A DNA stretch of 35,796 nt from Bacteroides sp. (GTDB taxonomy: Bacteria; Bacillota; Clostridia; Oscillospirales; Ruminococcaceae), in the NCBI GenBank assembly GCA_023663265.1, contig JAMPHV010000016.1, positions 1 through 35,796 of the forward strand, in the 5' to 3' direction. Within the stretch, counting starts at the first letter, position 1. Each line of letters starts with the position of its first letter. The notes under the pieces are model-generated. The model searched no databases. It was not told the DNA's origin and saw only the letters and a program-made list of their open reading frames with translations. The translations under genes were made by a program, and so were the position numbers. Positions 1,727 through 14,415 of the stretch are shown in pieces.

Positions 1727-2284
1727 ATGAAGCTTGAAAATATACGAGTTTACGATATGGAGGAGTGCTTCAAGGCGAGCAAGTACCCCATGGCGGTCGA
1801 CACCGAGGCGGTAAACGGAGACATCACCGACAGGATAAAAAGCCTTGCTCAAAGCCCCAAGGGAGAGGGGCACGACCAGTTTTTAACGGGGATAAGGGTA
1901 GCCTTCGACCTTACCTTTACCGTCAAGGCGTGGACGGAGGCGGAAAGATACCGCTTTTTGGAGTTCGTTTCCAGCCAGTCCACCATGCACCGCATAGCGA
2001 AATTCGACCTGTCCAAGCAGTACAACAAATACGTCGATCCCCGTATGATAGAGATAATGGAGGAGCTGAAGGAGCGCTACAACGAGACCAACGACCCCGA
2101 GGACTATCTGAGGCTCCTATATTCCAATCCCTGCGGCTTCGAGCTGACCGCGAGACTGACCACCAATTACCGCTGTCTCAAAACGATTTACAGCCAAAGA
2201 AAAAACCACAGGCTCCCCGAATGGAGGGAGTTCTGCGTGGAGATAGAAAAGCTGCCTTATGCAAAAGAGTTGATAACGGGCTGA
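1727..2284 (+). CDS. Conserved hypothetical protein of a phage-associated family
   Basis: The product has 185 residues, no signal peptide and no membrane segment. Its organisation (FDLTFTVKAW in the middle, then SSQSTMHRI, then a C-terminal RKNHRLPEWREFC and a LPYAKELITG end) recalls a protein family common in Firmicute phages and integrative elements. Some members of that family resemble ThyX-type flavin-dependent thymidylate synthases. I recall this only by pattern and no catalytic motif is certain. GGAGGAGG about 10 bases before the ATG is a strong ribosome binding site, and the gene sits 20 bases behind lysC. Overlapping ORFs in other frames are shadows. The function is unknown, and a nucleotide-related role is a guess. 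Confidence 0.75.
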   Translation: MKLENIRVYDMEECFKASKYPMAVDTEAVNGDITDRIKSLAQSPKGEGHDQFLTGIRVAFDLTFTVKAWTEAERYRFLEFVSSQSTMHRIAKFDLSKQYNKYVDPRMIEIMEELKERYNETNDPEDYLRLLYSNPCGFELTARLTTNYRCLKTIYSQRKNHRLPEWREFCVEIEKLPYAKELITG

Positions 2285-2401
2285 AATAAGCCGATAATTT
2301 ACAGTCCGTTATCGATTTGTGTTAAGTGTAATTTCTGATACCTTATTTTTGTTATTTTTAACAAAAAACATTGACAATGTGAAAAAAATTTCGGTTTTTT
2401 A

Positions 2402-2430
2402 TTGTACATTTGGGGAATTTGTGTTATAAT
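2402..2430 (+). promoter_or_regulatory. Extended -10 promoter of the type IV pilus operon
   Basis: TTGTAC at 2402-2407, a 17-base spacer and TATAAT at 2425-2430 form the promoter. TG one base before the -10 (2422-2423) makes it an extended -10. Transcription would begin at about 2436-2437, exactly at the first base of the leader stem described next. A consensus TTGACA at 2371-2376 lies too far upstream to serve this -10. Confidence 0.75.
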
Positions 2431-2436
2431 GGTGAT

Positions 2437-2512
2437 AAGCCGTAACGGAGGTTGGCGCGAATTTGGACCCGAAAGGGGGGAGGATTTGCGAAAATCGGCT
2501 GGTTATCGGCTT
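2437..2512 (+). ncRNA. Structured leader RNA before pilC (unassigned, riboswitch-like)
   Basis: Three nested helices can be drawn. P1 pairs 2437-2446 (AAGCCGUAAC) with 2502-2512 (GUUAUCGGCUU) around one bulged U. P2 pairs CGCGAAUU (about 2456-2463) with GAUUUGCG (2483-2490). An inner stem closes a GAAA tetraloop (CCC-GAAA-GGG, 2468-2477). The two sides of the P1-P2 junction are purine-rich. About 50 bases separate P1 from the GTG of pilC. It does not match the c-di-GMP-I or c-di-GMP-II consensus I know, although such switches control T4P genes in other clostridia. Whether it senses a ligand is inference. Confidence 0.45.
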
Positions 2513-2561
2513 TATGCGCGTTTATTTTTACTAACATCAAAACTATGCGGAGGTAATCAAA

Positions 2562-3755
2562 GTGGCTATTTTCAGGTACACCGCCACCGACATCAGCGGT
2601 AAAACCGTTCGGGGCAAGGAAAGCGCCGAGGATAAGACCGCGCTGGTCCAAAAGCTGAAAAACAAAGGCTTGTTCTGTACGTCCTTTACCGAGGAAGCGG
2701 AAAAGACCCAGGACGCAAAGGTAAAGTTCAAGACCAAGGACCTTGCCTTTTTCTCCCGTCAGATAAGCACCATGCTTACTTCGGGCATCAGCCTTGTAAA
2801 AGCTCTGTCTATCCTCATCAATCAGCAGGAGGATAAAAAGCAGAAGGCTCTCCTTATGGAAATGTACGACGACGTACAAAGGGGCAAGTCCTTCTCCGAG
2901 GCTCTTATGGCACAGGGCAACGCGTTCCCCAATCTGTTCGTCAGCATGGTCGCCGCGGGCGAGAGCAGCGGTAACCTCGATCACATTATGCAAAGGCTCT
3001 CCGCTCACTACGATAAAGAAAACAAGACCAACAACAAGATAAAATCCGCTATGAGCTACCCTATTATTTTGGGTATCATAATGGTGGTCATCGTTGTGGC
3101 GCTGTTCGCGTTCGTAATGCCGAGCTTCGCGGATATGTTCACGAATCCCGACGACATTCCCGCGTTCACCGCGGCTTTGCTGGCGGTCAGCGACAGCATG
3201 GTGCATTACCCCTATATTTACATAGGCGTTATCATCGGCTTGGTGCTGCTGATCAAGTATATGAAGAAGGTGCCCGCGGTTAAGCTTTGGTGGGACAGGA
3301 CCAAGGTAAGGATACCCAAGGCGGGCAAGCTTATCTGTACGATCTATACCTCCCGTTTCGCACATACCATGAGCAACCTGTTTTCCTCGGGTATGCCTAT
3401 GGTCGAGTGCATACAGAAATCCGAGCAGGTATTGGGCAACAGCTACATAAGCAACGAATTTGTAACGGTCATCGAAAACGTAAAGCAAGGCGAGAGCTTT
3501 TCCACCGCCCTCGGGCGCACGGGAATATTCGACCCTATTTTCGTATCGGTAATACTGGTCGGCGAGGAATCGGGCACCCTCGATGAAATTCTCGAAAAGA
3601 CCGCCGATTACTACGACGATGAATCCGACACGGCTATAGACCGTCTTACCGCGATGCTCCAGCCTGCCATGATCCTTATTATGGGCGTTTTGGTATGTAT
3701 GATACTTCTTGCCGTATATCCCGCGATGTACGAGGCTATGGGCAATATGGGCTAA
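2562..3755 (+). CDS. pilC: Type IV pilus inner-membrane platform protein PilC (GspF family)
   Basis: This membrane platform protein couples the cytoplasmic ATPases PilB/PilT to pilin polymerisation. The 397-residue length is typical. Two repeated GspF domains are visible, with FFSRQISTMLTSGISLVKAL near residue 63 and a second copy (SRFAHTMSNLFSSGMPMVEC) near 265. Hydrophobic segments lie at about 166-187, 215-234 and 371-391. The GTG start at 2562 is set by GGAGG 8 bases upstream, and an earlier start would enter the leader RNA. It is the first gene of pilC-pilMN-pilO, driven by the promoter at 2402-2430. Confidence 0.93.
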   Translation: MAIFRYTATDISGKTVRGKESAEDKTALVQKLKNKGLFCTSFTEEAEKTQDAKVKFKTKDLAFFSRQISTMLTSGISLVKALSILINQQEDKKQKALLMEMYDDVQRGKSFSEALMAQGNAFPNLFVSMVAAGESSGNLDHIMQRLSAHYDKENKTNNKIKSAMSYPIILGIIMVVIVVALFAFVMPSFADMFTNPDDIPAFTAALLAVSDSMVHYPYIYIGVIIGLVLLIKYMKKVPAVKLWWDRTKVRIPKAGKLICTIYTSRFAHTMSNLFSSGMPMVECIQKSEQVLGNSYISNEFVTVIENVKQGESFSTALGRTGIFDPIFVSVILVGEESGTLDEILEKTADYYDDESDTAIDRLTAMLQPAMILIMGVLVCMILLAVYPAMYEAMGNMG

Positions 3756-11274: not shown

Positions 11275-12021
11275 CTATCTTATCAGCCCCAAGTAAGCGT
11301 TTATTATCTCCTCGCCCCAAAGGTAACCCGCGAATATGCCCATGGACAGGAACGGTCCGAATACTATCAAGCTGCTTTTGGTCACTATCTTAACGAATAT
11401 GCCGAACGCGGCGCCGATAATAATGCCTATCAGCGCGGAGGGCACTATGCTCCAGCCAAGAAGCAGACCCGCCGCCGCCATAAGCTGAACGTCCCCTCCG
11501 CCCATTGCGCCGAGAAAACAGAGTATGCCGAAGGGCACGGCGACTATTACGGCACCGATAAGGTGCTCATACCAAGGGATCTGCGAGGTGAACACGGATA
11601 CGACCCCCATTACCGCGATAAGAATACTGCAAGTGTAGGGGATCTCCTTTCGGTCGATGTCCCAAAGGCTCAGAACGATAAGCACGGGGAACAGCAGGAG
11701 GGCGTATATCAAGTCAACGGTCAAGCCGAGAGTAAGATACGCCGTCAGATAGGACAGCGCGGACAAAAGCTCCACCACCATATACCTTGACGAGATACGC
11801 TGCTTGCAGTAGCGGCAGCGCCCGCCAAGCAAAAACCAGCTCAGTATCGGGATAAGATCGTGATTTTTGATCTGTTTTCCGCAGGAGGTGCAGTGGGAGC
11901 GCCCCTTAACTATCGATTCCTTTTTGGGTATGCGGTAGGCGAGGACGTTTAAAAAGCTGCCTATCACGCTGCCCAAAATGAAGATCAAAACCGCAGATAT
12001 TACATTGAGAAATGTATTCAT
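11275..12021 (-). CDS. pilD: Prepilin peptidase / N-methyltransferase PilD
   Basis: This membrane aspartyl protease removes prepilin leaders and methylates the new N-terminus. The product has 248 residues from the ATG at 12021, which has AAGGCGG upstream; the longer frame to 12141 would overlap the antitoxin gene. The two zinc-binding CxxC pairs are at Cys44/47 and Cys69/72. Catalytic aspartates are Asp121 (LWDIDRKEIP) and Asp177 in the GGGD motif. About seven to eight hydrophobic segments are present. It is the only divergent gene in the pilus locus and acts on the five pilin-like products encoded here. Confidence 0.93.
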   Translation of the reverse strand: MNTFLNVISAVLIFILGSVIGSFLNVLAYRIPKKESIVKGRSHCTSCGKQIKNHDLIPILSWFLLGGRCRYCKQRISSRYMVVELLSALSYLTAYLTLGLTVDLIYALLLFPVLIVLSLWDIDRKEIPYTCSILIAVMGVVSVFTSQIPWYEHLIGAVIVAVPFGILCFLGAMGGGDVQLMAAAGLLLGWSIVPSALIGIIIGAAFGIFVKIVTKSSLIVFGPFLSMGIFAGYLWGEEIINAYLGLIR

Positions 12022-12128
12022 TATAGAATCCGCCTTTGTATGTATTTTTGTTATGTTTATTTTAACATTTTTGAGGGAAAAATGCAATAGGTGACAGAAC
12101 TTTATGTTTTTTAGAGGAGGAGTTTTAA

Positions 12129-12398
12129 ATGGGAAAAACAAGCTTTTCCATGAGAATAGACGAAGAGCTGAAAACCGAGGCGGAGGAGCTTTTCGCGGAT
12201 TTCGGAATGTCGTTGAGCACAGCCGTCAGAATCTTTCTTAAGCAGGCGGTAAGACAGCAGAATATGCCTTTTGCCATTAAGGAAAATATTCCGAACGATG
12301 AAACGATCAAAGCGATCGAGGACGCAAGAAAAGGAATAGGCGTTACTTCATTTAATACCGTTGAAGAGCTTTTGGAGGATTTGCATGCTGAAAGTTGA
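12129..12398 (+). CDS. dinJ: DinJ/RelB-family antitoxin
   Basis: The product has 89 residues. The N-terminal ribbon-helix-helix (KTSFSMRIDEELKTEAEELF, then GMSLSTAVRIFLKQAV) is the signature of DinJ antitoxins, which bind DNA as dimers and mask the toxin with their C-terminus. GAGGAGG lies 8 bases before the ATG. The last 14 bases overlap the toxin gene, so the two are translationally coupled. The usual autorepression operator would lie in the 107 bases between pilD and this gene; I see no obvious long palindrome there. Confidence 0.88.
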   Translation: MGKTSFSMRIDEELKTEAEELFADFGMSLSTAVRIFLKQAVRQQNMPFAIKENIPNDETIKAIEDARKGIGVTSFNTVEELLEDLHAES

Positions 12399-12663
12399 AT
12401 ACGGCAAGATGTTTAAAAAAGATTATAAACGCGCCGTAAAAAGAGGCTATAACGTCAAATTGCTCGATGAAGTAATCACTATGCTTGCAAATGAAAAAAA
12501 GCTGCCGAAAAAATATATGGATCATGCTTTGGAGGGCAAATATAAGGGCAGCAGAGAATGTCATATCACTCCCGATTGGCTTTTGGTTTACGAAATATAC
12601 GAAAACAGACTTATTTTGCATTTAAGCAGAACAGGTAAGCACAGCGAGCTTTTTGGAATGTAA
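12385..12663 (+). CDS. yafQ: YafQ-family mRNA interferase toxin
   Basis: The product has 92 residues, close to Escherichia coli YafQ. Residues matching its active site are visible: His47, His60 and Asp64 in ECHITPDW, and His86 with Phe90 in TGKHSELF. YafQ-type toxins cut mRNA in the ribosome and are neutralised by DinJ. I started it at the ATG at 12385, because the frame open from 12361 would add non-homologous residues inside the antitoxin. All key residues are present, so it looks active. It separates pilD from pilB, and the pair is probably a later arrival. Confidence 0.88.
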   Translation: MLKVEYGKMFKKDYKRAVKRGYNVKLLDEVITMLANEKKLPKKYMDHALEGKYKGSRECHITPDWLLVYEIYENRLILHLSRTGKHSELFGM

Positions 12664-12720: not shown

Positions 12721-14415
12721 ATGAAAAGTGTACCCATAGGACAATTGCTTGTAGATTCGGGCTATATCACCGACGTTCAGCTTAACGACGCCTTGGTCAA
12801 GCAGAAAACCGATTTCGCGGGTGAAAAGATCGGCGAGATACTGCTTAAGCTTGGCTACGTCAGCGAAACGCAGGTGGTGCATGCCCTTTCCGCAAGGCTT
12901 AAGGTGCCTTACATCGATTTGGTCACCTCAAAGATCGACATTGAAGCGGTCAAGAAAATACCCGAGGACGTGGCAAGAAAAAACACGGTCATCGGCTATA
13001 AGACCCAGGGCGGGCGGCTGTACGTCGCAACCAACGACCCCGTTAACTTTTACATTTTCGAGGAGCTGAAAATCACCTCGGGCATGGAGATATACCCCAT
13101 GCTTGCCACCAAATCCGCCATTGTTGACGCTATCGACCGCGCTTACTCGCAAAACACCGTAAGCGACATGATGAACGACATCAATAAAGAGTATGACGCC
13201 AACGAGGCGCTTATGCAGGCGGAGCTGGACAATTCCGACGAGCGTATCGACAACGCGCCTGTTGTAAAGCTGGTCAATACCCTTGTGGAGAACGCGTTCC
13301 ATAAAAACGCTTCGGATATCCATATCGAGCCGTTTAAGACCAAAACGAGGATACGTTTCCGTTTGGACGGCGACCTGGTGGAGCAGATGTCGGTCAAGCC
13401 CAACGTACATAATGCGCTTGTTACCCGTATCAAGATACTTGCGGGCATGAATATAGCCGAAAAGAGAATCCCTCTTGACGGACGTTACGGCGTAAATATC
13501 AACGGCGTTAACCTTGACCTCCGCGTCAGCTCGATACCTACCGTTTACGGCGAAAAGGTGGTTATCCGTCTTCTTTCCACCGCCGACGAAAAGGCGAGAA
13601 AGATAACCGACCTGGGTATGACGGACTATAACTACGAAATGTTCAAGAATATTATCCGCTGTCCTCACGGCGTTATGCTGGTAACGGGTCCTACGGGCTC
13701 GGGTAAATCCACCACCCTTTACGCCGCCTTGGGCGAGCTGTCCAAGCCCACCGTAAATATCGTAACGGTAGAGGACCCTGTGGAAAAGAAAATGGACGGC
13801 ATAAACCAGGTCCAGATAAACGACAAGGCGGGCATGACCTTCGCCGCCGCGCTTCGTTCGATACTCCGTCAGGACCCCGACGTTATAATGCTCGGTGAGA
13901 TACGTGACGGCGAAACGGCGGATATCGCCATAAGAGCCGCCATTACGGGACACCTTGTGCTTTCCACACTCCATACCAACGACGCGGCGGGCACGATAAT
14001 GCGTCTTGTTGATATGGGCGTTGCGCCTTATATGGTGGCTTCCTCCCTTATCGGCGTTATAGCGCAGAGACTTGTTAAGCTGCTTTGTCCGCACTGTAAG
14101 GAAAAGCTTATCCTTAACGATCCCGCCGACCTCAGACTGGTGGGCAAGACCGAAAGAACGGCAATTTACACTCCCCGCTTGGGCGGCTGCCGCGAGTGCG
14201 GCGGAACGGGCTATCACGGTCGTACCGCCATTCATGAGATAATCGTTACGGGCAACGATATAAAAGAGCTTATTTCCAAAAACGCAAGCCAGGAGGAAAT
14301 AGCGAATCTTGCAAGAAAGCACGGCACAAAGCTGCTGCGCGAAAACGTAACGGAAATGGTTTTGGCGGGGGAGACCTCGCTGGACGAATTGGTCAAGGCT
14401 ACATACTCCGTTTAA
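12721..14415 (+). CDS. pilB: Type IV pilus extension ATPase PilB
   Basis: This cytoplasmic hexameric ATPase drives pilus assembly on PilC. The product has 564 residues. A GspE/MshE N-terminal domain (MKSVPIGQLLVDSGYITDVQ onwards) occupies the first ~150 residues. The catalytic core has Walker A GPTGSGKST from about residue 323, an Asp box and Walker B (DPDVIMLGEIRDGETADIA), and a His box (GHLVLSTLHTNDAAGTI). Cys456/459 and Cys490/493 form the tetracysteine zinc motif of extension ATPases and separate it from PilT. MshE-type N domains bind c-di-GMP in some bacteria; whether this one does is open. AAAGGA precedes the ATG. pilT follows 21 bases after the stop. Confidence 0.95.
   Translation: MKSVPIGQLLVDSGYITDVQLNDALVKQKTDFAGEKIGEILLKLGYVSETQVVHALSARLKVPYIDLVTSKIDIEAVKKIPEDVARKNTVIGYKTQGGRLYVATNDPVNFYIFEELKITSGMEIYPMLATKSAIVDAIDRAYSQNTVSDMMNDINKEYDANEALMQAELDNSDERIDNAPVVKLVNTLVENAFHKNASDIHIEPFKTKTRIRFRLDGDLVEQMSVKPNVHNALVTRIKILAGMNIAEKRIPLDGRYGVNINGVNLDLRVSSIPTVYGEKVVIRLLSTADEKARKITDLGMTDYNYEMFKNIIRCPHGVMLVTGPTGSGKSTTLYAALGELSKPTVNIVTVEDPVEKKMDGINQVQINDKAGMTFAAALRSILRQDPDVIMLGEIRDGETADIAIRAAITGHLVLSTLHTNDAAGTIMRLVDMGVAPYMVASSLIGVIAQRLVKLLCPHCKEKLILNDPADLRLVGKTERTAIYTPRLGGCRECGGTGYHGRTAIHEIIVTGNDIKELISKNASQEEIANLARKHGTKLLRENVTEMVLAGETSLDELVKATYSV

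Follow-up and report, generated by a model that had tools for sequence, protein, structure and literature searches.

The window (the whole stretch of DNA analysed, 35,796 nt) is part of a 2.39-Mb draft genome, rated 96.5% complete (contig C41), and carries a type IV pilus operon preceded by a 185-aa ORF that has no Pfam match and by an aspartokinase-like gene (Table 1). The operon starts with a pilC gene, includes a PilM match under the Pfam cut-off, and encodes two proteins with N-methylation motifs. Upstream of pilC, an extended -10 promoter is followed by a leader of about 125 nt. The MshEN domain can bind c-di-GMP, and its presence on the pilus assembly ATPase would offer a protein-level route for this signal. 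Two adjoining small ORFs (89 and 100 aa) at 12129-12663 in the pilus region resemble, by eye, a RelB/DinJ-type antitoxin and a YafQ-type toxin. In the PilC comparison, the closest named relatives of the window were Oscillospiraceae bacterium MAGs; the proteins of L033 and L039 are 97% and 98% identical over the compared part.

Table 1. Features of the pilus promoter, the leader and the pilus region in the window
Feature	Position	Strand	Sequence, pairing or evidence
Upstream box A, conserved promoter element	2353..2368	+	TATTTTTAACAAAAAA; start 72 nt 5' of the -10
Promoter	2403..2430	+	-35-like TGTACA, 16-nt spacing, extended -10 TGTTATAAT; hexamer TATAAT 2425-2430
5'-terminal hairpin of the leader, 81 nt, 31 pairs	2435..2515	+	predicted fold, covariance model
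Basal helix, 5' arm	2435..2448	+	AUAAGCCGUAACGG, pairs with 2499-2515; one pair is UA in L033 in place of CG, both sides changed
Inner stem, 5' arm	2456..2464	+	CGCGAAUUU, pairs with 2482-2490 (GGAUUUGCG); double changes at two pairs
Apical stem-loop	2467..2478	+	GAAA loop in the window; L033 and L039 each have another, U-rich loop
Spacer and Shine-Dalgarno, 5' of the GTG start	2516..2561	+	GCGGAGGUAAUC
First operon gene, PilC/GspF-type inner-membrane protein	2562..3755	+	PF00482 T2SSF, E 1.9e-64
PilM match in the pilus operon	3797		under Pfam cut-off
Prepilin peptidase	11275-12141	minus	
PilB/GspE-type pilus assembly ATPase	12721-14415		MshEN domain PF05157, E 6.4e-17

The sequence-only reading of this locus had placed an extended -10 promoter ahead of the operon, and this was borne out (TGTACA-16-TATAAT, with TG preceding the -10). 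We found a pilC match in 64 genomes of the genus, of which G152 was left out, its gene start being missing. The 67 upstream regions included 4 duplicates, leaving 63 distinct regions. The promoter caller, which rewards TG, assigned an extended -10 to 62 of them, with doubtful calls for L084 and L099. Removal of L071, L084 and L099 for doubtful promoter calls gave the set of 60 leaders used below, and L033, with too short an upstream region, was further removed for the box A analysis (59 promoters). The window belongs to a clade of 11 leaders with PilC about 79% identical or more; its members are related, and counts within it are not independent.

An EM motif search over the 59 related promoters detected box A, with the consensus nAATTTnCAYAAAAA and an information of 11.7 bits versus 5.9-6.0 bits in three shuffled sets, a value inflated by the relatedness of the promoters and compared with controls that had fewer EM restarts than the real run. 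The best sites begin 66-79 nt 5' of the -10 in 55 of the 59 promoters. A matrix made from the non-clade sites, taken from the EM run that had included the clade, placed the best site at 69-72 nt in all ten clade promoters examined (shuffle fractions 0 to 0.035). Among 28 loci scored in the family's other genera, 10 had their best site at exactly 67 nt (5 of these with P <=0.05) and the others had it elsewhere. Box A is possibly the site of a regulator or a UP-type element. The box A pattern had 11 matches in the window's own genome versus 3 in the control, and several of them were copies of a repeat, thus revealing no clear regulon. This dispersed repeat, present on contigs C9, C21, C66 and C77, is palindromic around CGACC..GGTCG or a similar sequence, with a T-run into TGTTATAAT, and it produces false box A matches. 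Judged by these sequence comparisons, the promoter (extended -10 and box A) is better conserved across the genus than the leader.

The leader opens with a predicted hairpin. Folding of positions 2434-2520 gave an MFE of -32.5 kcal/mol, with none of 200 dinucleotide shuffles as good, and the whole 160-nt range considered earlier showed a weaker excess (z -1.65, 9 of 200 shuffles). The basal stem, the inner stem and the GAAA-capped tip that had been described from the letters are all predicted; the purine-rich junctions of that description are internal loops of one unbranched hairpin, in a model that has no branch points. From the position of the -10, the first transcribed base is expected at about 2437 (2435-2438), on or just inside the first pairs (basal pair at 2435), so that a hairpin beginning exactly at the +1 is plausible from the promoter model. 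The Shine-Dalgarno is outside the hairpin, being about 46% unpaired with the hairpin present versus 31% in a fold from 2519; the GTG start codon is about 10% unpaired with the hairpin and 16% in the fold from 2519. A weak 5-pair helix of the spacer with the Shine-Dalgarno is also present in the window fold. As a predicted structure, the hairpin is real.

The fold was better than shuffled sequences in all three homologues, the window, L033 and L039 (z -2.93, -4.27 and -2.94; 0, 1 and 1 of 200 shuffles as good). The alignment of these three sequences, from which the structure used in the covariation test was itself derived, has 91 of 93 pair cells standard. Compensatory changes in the stems, the check proposed for this leader, were found: 4 of 31 pairs changed on both sides (3 by a second count), while slid controls paired at just 40-52%. 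Column shuffles reached the covariation score in 14 of 500 cases and the number of further pair types in 108 of 500. Relative to the same number and kind of substitutions placed at random, the differences between the window and L033 preserved 30 of 31 pairs (24.7 expected, P 0.0006), and those between L039 and L033 likewise preserved 30 of 31, not significantly (28.1 expected, P 0.15). Invariant columns comprised 45 of 62 paired positions versus 7 of 20 unpaired ones, and the GAAA cap is lost in L033 and L039, which have U-rich loops instead. The helix is thus kept while the sequence changes and the loops vary, and the claim of a structured leader stands; on these three sequences, the hairpin structure is probably maintained by selection.

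Among 71 genomes of the genus, a covariance model built from the window, L033 and L039 matched strongly in three, scoring 104-106 bits once in each at the pilus promoter, and these were the same sequences as the model input. Three more weak matches (18-22 bits, E 0.08-0.86) were located elsewhere in the 71 genomes. In a sample of 197 genomes of the family, the sole match at E <=0.1 was the window's own genome, the two other carriers evidently not being sampled; the search filters scored part of the candidates in each genome, so weak members could be missed in these searches. L034, with PilC 89% identical, has a 41-nt leader unrelated in sequence, and relatives with PilC near 80% carry other leaders. 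The hairpin is lineage-specific and narrow in these sequence data, restricted to three closely related species.

This distribution bears on the fairly unlikely explanation that there is no function at the RNA level, and that an imperfect palindrome, for instance a decayed small mobile element, lies by chance after the promoter. The presence in a single lineage with no trace in L034 is consistent with it, as is a covariation signal drawn from three sequences, but paired changes maintain the helix and the hairpin is single copy in its genome, where a DNA search at E up to 10 detected a sole other match of 14 bases. A dispersed repeat or MITE was rejected on account of this single copy.

Neither the window nor 40 loci of relatives contained an Rfam match at gathering score, and a search of 2285-2600 at E up to 10 yielded just two irrelevant matches, both 5' of the promoter and neither a riboswitch. 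The leader therefore matches neither of the c-di-GMP riboswitch classes, as had been supposed from its sequence. In the own genome, searches with the c-di-GMP-I and -II families found nothing, but the control genomes were equally silent, so absence from the genome does not follow. The premise that c-di-GMP riboswitches control type IV pilus genes of clostridia holds for C. difficile pilA1, according to an excerpt of PMC6200980. There, the c-di-GMP-II riboswitch (RF01786) is likewise a structured leader before type IV pilus genes in a member of the Clostridia, whereas the leader here has no match to the family and its hairpin is unbranched and without a terminator. The c-di-GMP-I riboswitch (RF01051), a leader RNA that precedes surface and motility genes in C. 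difficile by the same excerpt (PMC6200980), has no match in the window or in this leader.

It had been suggested that the leader could be a new regulatory RNA class, potentially a riboswitch or other ligand-sensing RNA, perhaps for c-di-GMP. A structured leader with covariation and without Rfam match, the precedent of pilA1 and a genome with 16 GGDEF matches, which make c-di-GMP signalling likely, are all in line with this suggestion. A ligand-binding RNA should have an unpaired core more conserved than its helices, and the opposite was detected, so the variable loops and the lost GAAA speak against it. The hairpin is also unbranched, single copy and found in one gene context, with just three strongly matching genomes out of 71 in the genus; it is clear of the Shine-Dalgarno, no terminator was called on the + strand at 1800-3200, and relatives with the same operon carry other leaders. 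We consider a riboswitch very improbable and find no support for a new RNA class. There is a similarly slim chance of a very young and narrow sensor RNA, in which the internal loops, on binding a nucleotide or a protein as signal, would adjust expression of the pili in the three species, the RNA having replaced another leader in their common ancestor.

Protein binding or translational control, for example CsrA acting on GGA motifs of the hairpin and the Shine-Dalgarno to repress pilC translation, appears unlikely. The genome has a csrA gene (73.5 bits), and GGA occurs in the window leader at an internal loop, close to the tip and within the Shine-Dalgarno; L039 retains the first of these motifs, and both relatives retain the one in the Shine-Dalgarno. 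However, GGGGG replaces the first GGA in L033, the tip motifs are present in neither relative, and the tip loop sequences differ.

Control at the transcription level, by a nascent hairpin that pauses the polymerase promoter-proximally or by a weak attenuator with the U-rich 2521-2529, is quite improbable. The U-rich tract begins 5 nt past the stem, and GUUUA is present in all three sequences, but no terminator was called at the site and the U-run is interrupted in L039. An ordinary intrinsic terminator would have its U-run closer to the stem. Alternative pairings were judged by eye. A leader peptide was also considered and rejected: the frame from an ATG inside the -10 stays open through the leader, but its start would be untranscribed, L033 is shifted by one base, and many of the codon differences alter the amino acid (by eye).

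The anatomy of the leader, with its 5' end in a stem and the spacer and Shine-Dalgarno outside it, suggests a lineage-specific 5'-terminal stem-loop of an ordinary kind that may shield the pilus mRNA from 5'-end-dependent decay. This is the likeliest of the readings considered, with about an even chance; the protection, its consequence for expression and the exact start site are inferred. A long imperfect hairpin would open the leader with its basal pair at the expected transcription start, and the 5' end, buried in the stem ahead of the spacer and Shine-Dalgarno, would leave no single-stranded entry for a pyrophosphohydrolase or RNase J. Blocked entry could result in a longer life of the long pilus mRNA. 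If the helix alone matters and its sequence is free, the element would turn over between lineages.

In the stabilizing 5' stem-loops of aprE, ompA and papA, the helix counts more than the sequence. RNase J is encoded in the own genome (644 bits), in which no RNase Y passed its cut-off (best 27 bits; genome 96.5% complete). The 5' exonuclease activity of RNase J1 is said to explain the stabilizing effect of 5' roadblocks in the part of PMC3997798 consulted, and its reference list includes titles on 5' stem-loops or 5' UTRs of aprE, ompA and papA. The B. subtilis aprE leader and the E. coli ompA and papA 5' UTRs resemble the leader here in having a stem at the 5' end, a spacer and a Shine-Dalgarno; unlike them, the hairpin here has 81 nt and 31 pairs, occurs in three species, and its stabilizing effect is predicted. 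None of the literature titles found, in a search that was not exhaustive, names a pilus leader or promoter box of such a kind in this group.

Protection depends on the start site, which is predicted, since transcription beginning a few bases further upstream would put unpaired nucleotides ahead of the stem. The unpaired 5' end of L004, a member of the clade, the 41-nt leader of L034 and the low accessibility of the start codon count against a protective role. With a strong RNase J match and no RNase Y over its cut-off, mRNA decay in this organism may differ from that of B. subtilis, or the RNase Y gene may be in the missing part of the assembly.

We analysed the 5'-end structure across the clade and the genus. 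Within the clade, pairing of the first 12 nt exceeded the mean of the shuffles for 10 of 11 leaders, with P <=0.05 in 5 of 11; outside it, pairing of the 5' end was near chance (P <=0.05 in 1 of 49 leaders). Over all 60 leaders, 5'-end pairing was 0.49 versus 0.43 in shuffled sequences, and the mean folding z was -0.96 (P <=0.05 in 14 of 60). For the seven long-leader members of the clade, three of which are the hairpin's own homologues, 90-nt windows had a mean z of -2.6 at offset -10 and -2.1 at offset 0 from the +1, with -2.2 to -1.6 at offsets -30 and -20, -1.9 at +10, and 0.0 to -0.7 at -110 to -40. There was no clade peak at the 50-nt width, because the clade hairpins are longer. Outside the clade, 50-nt windows had a mean z of -1.18 at the start site (42 leaders) versus +0.16 to -0.62 upstream, relatedness being ignored. 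With 45-nt windows in 25 representatives, the mean z reached -0.66 at offsets -2 and +7 and was close to 0 from -38 to -11, with values of -0.4 to -0.57 at several offsets further upstream. The difference in 5' pairing between the clade and the remaining leaders suggests that a structured 5' end is a feature of the clade and no rule for the genus. A general 5'-hairpin rule for the genus was considered and set aside as weakly supported.

Our results lower the case for a new riboswitch class and point to turnover of 5' leaders, in which the pilus promoter is conserved and the 5' ends behind it, often structured, differ from lineage to lineage. Should the stabilizer reading prove right, leader hairpins would amount to a simple means of setting pilus expression that evolves fast, and a search for the regulator would do better to start from the conserved upstream promoter box. 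Another subgroup of the genus (L061, L062, L064, L065, L067 and L069) shares a different leader, with GTGATAATAAT..TTTTTGG.. and AATGGGGGATA at the Shine-Dalgarno, which is possibly a structured element of its own.
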